DNA from: Candidatus Methylomirabilota bacterium
GTDB taxonomy: Bacteria; Methylomirabilota; Methylomirabilia; Rokubacteriales; CSP1-6
Assembly: GCA_035936835.1 (NCBI GenBank)
Contig: DASYVT010000122.1
Span: forward strand, 1-47,107
Length of the DNA stretch: 47,107 nt
Reading direction: 5' to 3'
The notes below the pieces were generated by a model that was given only the letters and a program-made list of their open reading frames with translations, was not told where the DNA came from and searched no databases. Of the stretch, positions 1,023-2,525 are shown one piece after another; position 1 is the first letter of the stretch; each line of letters starts with the position of its first letter. The position numbers and the translations under genes are program-made.

Positions 1023-1262
1023 TTAGAGCCCCAAGAGACGCTTCAGCCGCCCCCGGTCGAATCCGACGATCACTTCGTCGTCGACCGTGATGACGGGCAC
1101 GGCCATGCGGCCGGTCTTGGCGACCAGTTCCTCCCGAGCCGTCGCGTCCTCCGCGACGTTCTTCGCGACAAAAGCAATCCCCTGAGACGAAAGAAACTCT
1201 TTCGCCGCGTGGCAGGACTGTCAGGTGGTCGCCCAGTAGACCGTGATCTGCTGGTTCGTCAT
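1023..1262 (-). CDS. Glutaredoxin-like selenoprotein (UxxC) of the mer operon
   Basis: Reading through one in-frame TGA (1221-1223) gives 79 residues with a complete glutaredoxin/NrdH fold: beta strand [10 protein letters not shown], then U14-Q-S-C17, helix [11 protein letters not shown], the cis-proline strand [17 protein letters not shown], and a terminal helix. The TGA stands exactly at the first cysteine of the family CxxC, so the active site reads UxxC. Without read-through only 13 residues would be made. A hairpin follows the TGA (separate entry). The start ATG overlaps the MerB stop as ATGA, and the stop is 5 bases before the zinc-ribbon gene. Likely role: reducing Hg-bound or oxidised thiol and selenol groups of the operon's proteins. 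The role is inference; the fold and UGA position are seen. Confidence 0.85.
1175..1223 (-). promoter_or_regulatory. SECIS-like stem-loop after the glutaredoxin UGA
   Basis: On the minus strand, directly after TGA 1223-1221, CGAAAGA and TCTTTCG pair perfectly around a three-base loop GTT about 24-26 bases after the TGA. A lower stem pairs CAGTCCTG with CAGGGGATTG, with a small bulge and one G-U. A G-U apical loop at this distance from UGA is the usual form of a bacterial SECIS that recruits SelB. Confidence 0.7.
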
Positions 1263-1927
1263 GGCTTCTGGCCCCTCAGGAGCCCTCCAAAGACCCGCTC
1301 GCCGAGCTTGAAGGCCTCGGACACCGGAGTCCCCGCGCCTTCCATCGTGGGATTGGCCTCCCACCACGCCCTCATATGCTCTTCCGACCGGAAGAAGTTG
1401 AGGGCCGTTCAGGTTGTCGTCGAGGCTCGCCGCTCGCCGTCGCACCGTTTCCCCGCCCAGACCATGACCCCTTCGGCGTCCGGCCCCGGCCCGAATGGAT
1501 CGGCCGACAACTCAAGGGTCTCCCCGCAATGATGGCAGCGCGATCGGATGCGCACCGACTCCCCGAGCATCGGCGCCACTCCCAACGCGTCGATCGCGCA
1601 GCAGACGTAGCGGTCTCCGCGTCCCGACAGATGGACGACAAAGGATGTGGGGGTGGCCGAAAAGGGATACGCCAAGTCCACGCGACCATCGCGGATTTGG
1701 ATCAGGTCGTCCTCGTCCCGCCTCGTCAGGGCCGCTCGAATATCGTCCGGGGCCCGCTCGGGGAAGGCCCGGATGATCTCCTCAACCACGATCGGGTCGG
1801 GCCGCTCGACGAAAGCTCGCAGAATAGCCTGTAAAACTTCGGCTTCCCGCGCCACGCGCCGTGTGGTCCATCGCGCTTCCAGCGCCGGATCCGCCAGCTC
1901 TGCCGCGCTCTTGATCTGGAATGTCAT
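1259..1927 (-). CDS. merB: MerB-like organomercurial lyase with selenocysteine at the catalytic position
   Basis: Reading through TGA 1409-1411 gives 222 residues, the normal MerB length (~212). Residues 1-80 form a winged-helix-like region. The catalytic C-A-x-D motif is seen in YVCCAIDAL (C110, D113; C96 and D99 of E. coli plasmid MerB), and RIRSRC131 matches the structural cysteine. The TGA is residue 173, in STT-U-TALNFF. In MerB the catalytic C159 has the same distance to the conserved FF. The C-terminal helix region [16 protein letters not shown] continues in frame. MerB cleaves the carbon-mercury bond and passes Hg(II) to MerA. ATG 1927 was chosen because GGAGG lies 9 bases upstream; ATG 1933 is the alternative. 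It is the first gene of the operon and overlaps the glutaredoxin gene (ATGA). Confidence 0.85.
1368..1411 (-). promoter_or_regulatory. SECIS-like stem-loop after the merB UGA
   Basis: Three bases after TGA 1411-1409, GCCCTCA pairs perfectly with TGAGGGC. Inside it, TCTTCC pairs perfectly with GGAAGA around the four-base loop GGTC. The loop resembles the GGUC-containing apical loop of the E. coli fdhF SECIS and sits about 20 bases after the UGA. The two stems are separated by an ACT/GCATA internal loop. This is the strongest hairpin of the four in the window. Confidence 0.78.
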
Positions 1928-2036: not shown

Positions 2037-2525
2037 ATGAACGCCAGATCAGATGGGTTACCAATCGGAGCCCTGTCCAAACAGACGGGCTGCAACATCG
2101 AGACCATCCGCTACTACGAGAAGGCCGGCCTCCTACCCACCCCCGCAAGGAGTCCCGCGGGCTATCGGCGATACGGCAGCACTCATCTCAAACGCCTCAC
2201 CTTCATCCGCCGCGCCCGGGCGCTCGGCTTTTCCATCGAAGAGGTCCGGAAGCTCCTCAAGCTCGCCGATGAACGCAAACGGCCGTGCGCCGAGGTCCGG
2301 GTCGTGGCCGGCGTGCACCTGAAGGATGTCCAAGCCAAAATCGCAGACCTTCGAGCCATGGAGCGCGTCCTCCGGGAGACCGTCGCCAAGTGCGCGAGCG
2401 GCAGGAGCCCCGACTGTCCGCTCATCGAGTCTTTGTCTCGCGAGGGCCCAGACAATCCCTCCACGTTAACGGCGAGCCATGTGCGGGCGCAGAGGAAGGC
2501 GTCAGAACGAAGCGCCCGGGATTGA
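2037..2525 (+). CDS. merR: MerR mercury-responsive regulator
   Basis: The 162-residue protein has the MerR winged helix (IGALSKQTGCNIETIRYYEK, then SPAGYRRYG), a second helix pair around residues 40-75 and the long dimer helix. All three Hg(II) ligands of Tn-type MerR are present: PCAEVR, AKCASG and PDCPLIESL. Hg sensing is therefore well supported, unlike for other MerR relatives. ATG 2037 was chosen: GTG 2025 lies inside the GAGGGGG ribosome-binding site. The C-terminal tail of about 30 residues after PLIESL is longer than usual. Its stop codon lies in a 22-base repeat that forms a hairpin. Confidence 0.92.
   Translation: MNARSDGLPIGALSKQTGCNIETIRYYEKAGLLPTPARSPAGYRRYGSTHLKRLTFIRRARALGFSIEEVRKLLKLADERKRPCAEVRVVAGVHLKDVQAKIADLRAMERVLRETVAKCASGRSPDCPLIESLSREGPDNPSTLTASHVRAQRKASERSARD

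Follow-up and report, generated by a model that had tools for sequence, protein, structure and literature searches.

The catalytic set of canonical MerB, the organomercurial lyase (PF03243; PDB entries 3f0o, 3f2f and 1s6l; MerB2, 5c17), consists of Cys96, Asp99 and Cys159 (PMC8261052, PMC4525700). The mercury is held by Cys96 and Cys159 and leaves the enzyme upon attack by an external thiol (PMC4525700). Relatives that contain selenocysteine (Sec) have been described. An alkylmercury lyase MerB-like selenoprotein is listed in a review (PMC9312934); it is now named SaoL (NF040728) and carries the motif CU (Haft and Gwadz 2023, as cited in PMC13188914). The latter review also cites an assembly from the Methylomirabilota for which 63 selenoprotein genes were predicted (Deng et al. 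2026). In the part of the literature that was covered, no paper describing a MerB with selenocysteine inside a mer operon was found. The statement of the initial annotation that no Sec-MerB is on record therefore has to be narrowed: reviews list the Sec-containing, MerB-like SaoL, but the protein reported here scores below the SaoL cut-off. Sec-containing MerB-like proteins being already known, what appears to be new, judging from the sequences, is a Sec-MerB lineage that lies below this cut-off and resides in a genuine mer operon.

The window, a stretch of 47,107 nucleotides from a Candidatus Methylomirabilota bacterium, a soil organism of the Rokubacteria type, contains a gene, merB-Sec, at positions 1259 to 1927 of the reverse strand. 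The gene encodes 222 residues followed by a stop, as established by translation, Pfam, phmmer, alignments and a structure model. The initial annotation had proposed that a MerB frame runs from 1927 to 1259 across a TGA at 1409-1411, that this TGA takes the place of the catalytic Cys159, and that the partner motif C-A-x-D is intact; all three proposals are borne out. When TGA is translated as U, the frame holds a single internal TGA (1411-1409, residue 173), and its true stop is the TGA at 1261-1259. The Pfam MerB match spans the internal TGA (residues 89-214, E-value 1.5e-26, 93.3 bits against a cut-off of 27). In phmmer alignments to PDB chains, residue 173 lies opposite the catalytic cysteine of MerB2 (5c17) and of the MerB chain represented by 3f2g, five residues before Phe178-Phe179, and the aligned residue in the plasmid MerBs of Pseudomonas K-62 and Bradyrhizobium is a cysteine. 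With reference to R831b MerB, Cys110 corresponds to Cys96, Asp113 to Asp99, Cys131 to Cys117 and Sec173 to Cys159, and the partner motif reads C110-A-I-D113. Cys110, Asp113, Cys131, residue 173 and the FF pair are invariant in an alignment of 27 proteins and, in a second alignment, are common to the plasmid MerBs, to which the product is up to about 35% identical. An automatic annotation would end the gene at the UGA and so miss the C terminus together with the catalytic residue.

The merB-Sec product thus shares with canonical MerB the fold, Cys96, Asp99, position 159, Cys117, the FF pair and the mer-operon setting. It differs in having Sec (UGA) in place of Cys159 and is only about 20-22% identical to canonical MerB in structural alignment. 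Because UGA, predicted to encode Sec as a functional equivalent, replaces the Cys159 codon, merB-Sec is classed as a Sec variant and not as canonical MerB. The scores against the curated NCBIfam MerB models are below their cut-offs (58.3 versus 193 bits for NF009710 and 44.8 versus 200 for NF033555), and no dedicated NCBIfam model covering merB-Sec was found. The AlphaFold model of the product has a mean pLDDT of 88. A Foldseek search with this model gave MerB or MerB2 for all of the top 11 PDB matches (TM 0.56-0.69 by query, E-values 6e-11 to 7e-8), and these two proteins were the only confident matches. The loop that holds Sec173 (residues 162-174) is poorly predicted, with a pLDDT below 50, and the geometry of the active site is therefore deduced from the alignment.

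The likeness to SaoL is that of one Sec-containing MerB homologue to another: residues 27-141 match the NF040728 profile at 1.5e-14. The score, however, is 54.2 bits against a cut-off of 140, and the assignment of merB-Sec to SaoL was rejected on this ground. No protein above the NF040728 cut-off was found in the 60 Methylomirabilota genomes searched. The motifs also differ, being U-T-x-x-N-F-F with no preceding cysteine in merB-Sec and CU in SaoL, which was compared by its profile and description only. Unlike SaoL, merB-Sec is accompanied by mer genes and a glutaredoxin. The position below the SaoL cut-off and the location in a genuine mer operon set this variant apart from SaoL.

A search for the same TGA in related genomes, as the initial annotation had suggested, covered 50 homologous loci, almost all from relatives in the same phylum, and 43 of them have it. 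Another five loci carry TGC or TGT (Cys) in this column. In the remaining two the alignment slips locally, and the TGA is found within the same motif but a few positions off. According to these counts the column alternates solely between TGA and Cys codons, and a TGA in 43 of 50 loci with TGC and TGT as the sole alternatives is more than chance would produce. The 43 loci include copies and overlaps; 40 are distinct after the TGA, and 27 of those are close homologues. An error of sequencing or assembly might have made a TGA from TGC or TGT, and the source does look like a metagenome assembly in many contigs. The same TGA, however, recurs in dozens of assemblies that are independent of one another and whose flanking codons have diverged, so that the probability of such an error is vanishingly small.

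The sequence beyond the TGA bears on whether it is an ordinary stop. Homologues at 41-62% identity can be aligned through to the C terminus. Over residues 174-222, merB-Sec differs from its homologue in one genome of the same genus (G001) by no synonymous and one nonsynonymous change, and from that in another (G004) by five synonymous and four nonsynonymous changes, a ratio near 0.25. The region downstream of the TGA is, by these comparisons, under purifying selection. Were the TGA an ordinary stop, merB would be truncated or decaying, or the codon would be a translational switch giving a protein of 172 residues; without Sec insertion the frame does close there, and the list of open reading frames ends it at 1409. 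This is very unlikely, because homologues from different genera and families have the TGA in the same column, because it is followed by a region under purifying selection and a conserved hairpin in a genome with the full Sec machinery, and because the truncated product would lack the residue at position 159, the FF pair and the C-terminal helix. Sequencing error, pseudogene and general reassignment of UGA were each rejected for this codon on the evidence of the homologues.

In a tree of the 27 proteins, a pair of Cys forms (L029 and L031) nests within the Sec forms, which suggests a reversion from Sec to Cys in their ancestry. Two close copies of merB appear damaged, one by a change of frame inside the gene (L026, G001:C120) and the other by loss of the stretch with the Sec codon (L076, G004:C47). 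A second, longer MerB-like family of the Rokubacteria (L060-L067, L078) has a TGA at the Cys159 position and the same GGUC hairpin; its C terminus is different and most of its members have Glu for Asp99. The copy of this family in the genome of the window (L059, G000:C175) is split across frames. The Methylomirabilis-type MerB genes (L068-L072, L077) likewise have a TGA at the same position, followed by a hairpin with a UGUAC loop. In 151 genomes of another phylum MerB was matched six times, weakly or moderately and never with a TGA; 17 genomes of a third phylum gave no MerB match.

The initial annotation had noticed a two-part stem with a GGTC loop behind the TGA. The RNA from 1405 to 1368 (reverse strand, 38 nt) indeed folds into a bacterial SECIS-like hairpin of -21.2 kcal/mol, with a lower stem GCCCUCA/UGAGGGC and an upper stem around the GGUC loop. 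None of 200 dinucleotide shuffles folds as well (z -2.99; z -3.65 for a tighter segment). The conserved upper hairpin begins 11 nt after the UGA, and the spacing is constant at 11-12 nt across the homologues, including two MerB lineages of the phylum that are less closely related; in the Methylomirabilis-type lineage the stem is the same and the loop differs. The upper stem is identical throughout the close Sec set, and the lower stem is perfect solely in the window and in the relatives nearest to it.

Evidence for this hairpin comes from codon choice. The FFRSE segment is written TTC TTC CGG TCG GAA in 27 of the 27 distinct close Sec homologues, while nearby in the same genes only 39% of the Arg codons are CGG, 42% of the Ser codons TCG and 24% of the Glu codons GAA. 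Kinship inflates the count of 27, but the codons flanking FFRSE vary freely in these genes, which shows that there was time to diverge. The Cys homologues break the hairpin, and one of them, L031, keeps FFRSE but uses TCC and GAG, thus disrupting the structure by synonymous changes alone. The energies of the whole 51-nt fold are not consistently lower than those of synonymous shuffles (mean z -0.69 for the Sec genes), and those of the core hairpin alone have a mean z of -1.48. As only the core hairpin folds below the synonymous shuffles, the argument is carried by the invariance of the codons and not by energy. Rfam at its gathering thresholds gave no match in the window and did not recognise the hairpin.

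The genome contains all four genes, selA, selB, selC and selD, for which the initial annotation had proposed a search. SelA was detected by profile at 498 bits, and selC (tRNA-Sec, 71.3 bits) lies 1.6 kb from selA. A SelB-like open reading frame adjoins selA (5203-7110 of L010, read from the sequence rather than scored by profile). SelD (348 bits) has an in-frame TGA of its own in the motif YAACAGU. SelA is present in 25 of the 25 genomes with a close TGA-bearing MerB homologue and was undetected in three genomes with Cys-type MerB (G083, G088, G091), of which the completeness is only 68-85%. Together, the pairing of TGA with Cys, the conserved hairpin and the Sec genes strongly support the reading of the UGA as Sec. 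None of the findings that the initial annotation had named as evidence against Sec, a sense codon other than Cys in relatives, a genome devoid of Sel genes or a sequencing error behind the TGA, was encountered.

Recoded UGA occurs in other bacteria, and a tRNA for Trp or Cys might in principle decode the codon in this lineage. The merB-Sec gene itself, however, terminates at a TGA that overlaps the next start, the codon exchanges with Cys and not with Trp, a tRNA-Sec is present, and a SECIS-like hairpin follows the UGA in merB-Sec, the glutaredoxin gene and selD alike. Decoding by another tRNA is therefore extremely improbable.

The merB-Sec gene is the first of a mer operon, in which it is followed in one direction by genes for a UxxC glutaredoxin, a zinc-ribbon protein, MerF, a MerT-like protein and MerP. 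A MerR-family regulator is encoded divergently upstream (2037 to 2525, forward strand; TIGR02051 at 2.8e-39 and 134.2 bits, below the cut-off of 150.85). Between the two genes, at 1977 to 2007 on the reverse strand, there is a candidate promoter of the MerR type for the merB operon, consisting of TTGAGT, a 19-base spacer with the dyad CTGTAGTTACTACAG, and TACCGT. The dyad occurs once in the window, with zero occurrences expected. From its layout, this segment would act as the MerR-type promoter of merB.

The start of the glutaredoxin gene (P0003; 1023 to 1262, reverse strand; Pfam Glutaredoxin 2.9e-16) overlaps the merB stop in the sequence ATGA. Its product is a predicted selenoprotein of the YruB/NrdH/Uxx-star type, with an in-frame UGA at 1221 to 1223 (WATT-U-QSC) that opens the active-site motif (U-Q-S-C). 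This second TGA, like the mer operon around merB, had escaped the initial annotation. Uxx-star (NF041212) and YruB (TIGR02196) likewise have Sec where the redox motif begins, but P0003 is below both curated cut-offs (55.1 versus 66 bits and 83.9 versus 88.55 bits, respectively), has UxxC rather than UxxT, and is coupled to merB. A SECIS-like hairpin follows at 1174 to 1220 on the reverse strand (core CGAAAGA-GUU-UCUUUCG, -18.6 kcal/mol, z -2.16). Because the neighbouring glutaredoxin genes of the relatives have a TGA at the same place and keep the hairpin core, the two adjoining genes for predicted selenoproteins in the operon are conserved as a pair. The pair is also found in some Methylomirabilis-type genomes; at three such loci (L070, L071, L077) a TGA-containing glutaredoxin gene and MerF adjoin the MerB gene.

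The remaining genes of the operon lie on the same strand. A two-module LysW-like zinc-ribbon protein is encoded at 736 to 1017 (Pfam PF21344, 7.6e-8), and its gene recurs beside merB and the glutaredoxin gene in the mer operons of relatives. The MerF mercury transporter at 521 to 727 scores 55.4 bits with NF033565, above the cut-off of 50. The MerT-like mercury transporter at 114 to 521 (NF010314, 2.5e-5) is below the cut-off with Pfam MerT (3.6e-4), and its synteny is conserved. The MerP-like gene, cut by the contig end, begins within 1 to 109 with a signal peptide followed by SVEGMT, as judged by translation and from relatives.

We consider it probable, with good confidence, that the first gene of this MerR-controlled mer operon encodes a SelB- and SECIS-dependent organomercurial lyase, which has Sec at the Cys159 position and cleaves the C-Hg bond. 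The steps might be as follows. SelA, selC and the Sec-containing SelD would supply the Sec-tRNA, and SelB would bind the GGUC-loop hairpin downstream, causing the ribosome to decode the UGA at 1411-1409 as Sec. In the folded enzyme, Cys110 (C96) and the selenolate of Sec173 (C159) would bind the organomercury, and Asp113 (D99) would then protonate the carbon. The Hg(II) product would be handed on, plausibly to the adjoining UxxC glutaredoxin or to small thiols, and finally to a mercuric reductase encoded elsewhere. A selenolate would be ionised at neutral pH and bind mercury more tightly than a thiolate. At position 159 it could thus speed the capture of mercury and slow its release. One may speculate, from the conserved pairing with merB, that the glutaredoxin serves this release or a re-reduction.

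It is also conceivable that the protein is a selenoprotein with another main role, cleaving or sequestering other organometals or metalloids, or just binding mercury. Some members of the MerB superfamily, such as the 99Ser variants, have been proposed to be generalised organometal enzymes (PMC8261052), and SaoL bears the name of organometallic lyase (PMC13188914). Several Sec-MerB homologues (e.g. L092, L093) lie outside mer operons, beside genes for a luciferase-like monooxygenase, SnoaL-like proteins or ABC substrate-binding proteins, so that mercury need not be the target of all members and the substrates of the family may vary. The gene in the window, however, shares its operon with MerR, MerF, MerT-like and MerP genes and encodes the whole organomercurial lyase triad, which makes another main role rather unlikely for it. 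As for a wider extension of the lyase proposal, the chances seem to us evenly balanced: a mer operon spread through the clade of Methylomirabilota, in which MerB and a dedicated glutaredoxin would both be selenoproteins, so that selenolate chemistry would serve the cleavage of organomercury as well as the release of Hg(II), and in which Sec159 would occur in at least three MerB lineages.

The chemistry of selenium and mercury has mostly been treated as a matter of toxicity, in which mercury disables selenoenzymes. Here, an organomercury-cleaving enzyme appears to place a selenolate at the very position that binds mercury, and its gene is coupled to that of a second predicted selenoprotein. If so, nature provides a test of what MerB might gain from Sec (a lower pKa, faster attack and tighter mercury binding) even though product release is expected to suffer, and the natural Cys relatives L029 and L031 are the controls. 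Soil bacteria of the Rokubacteria type would then also carry a gene for the degradation of organomercury.

MerA is absent from this contig, which ends within merP, and of the MerA-like matches in this genome the highest-scoring one has 401.5 bits, below the curated cut-off of 454. Elsewhere in the same genome, a MerA-like flavin disulphide reductase (L080, G000:C172:2192-3517) has a TGA at its second redox cysteine (CVNRGU) and is possibly a Sec-containing enzyme as well.
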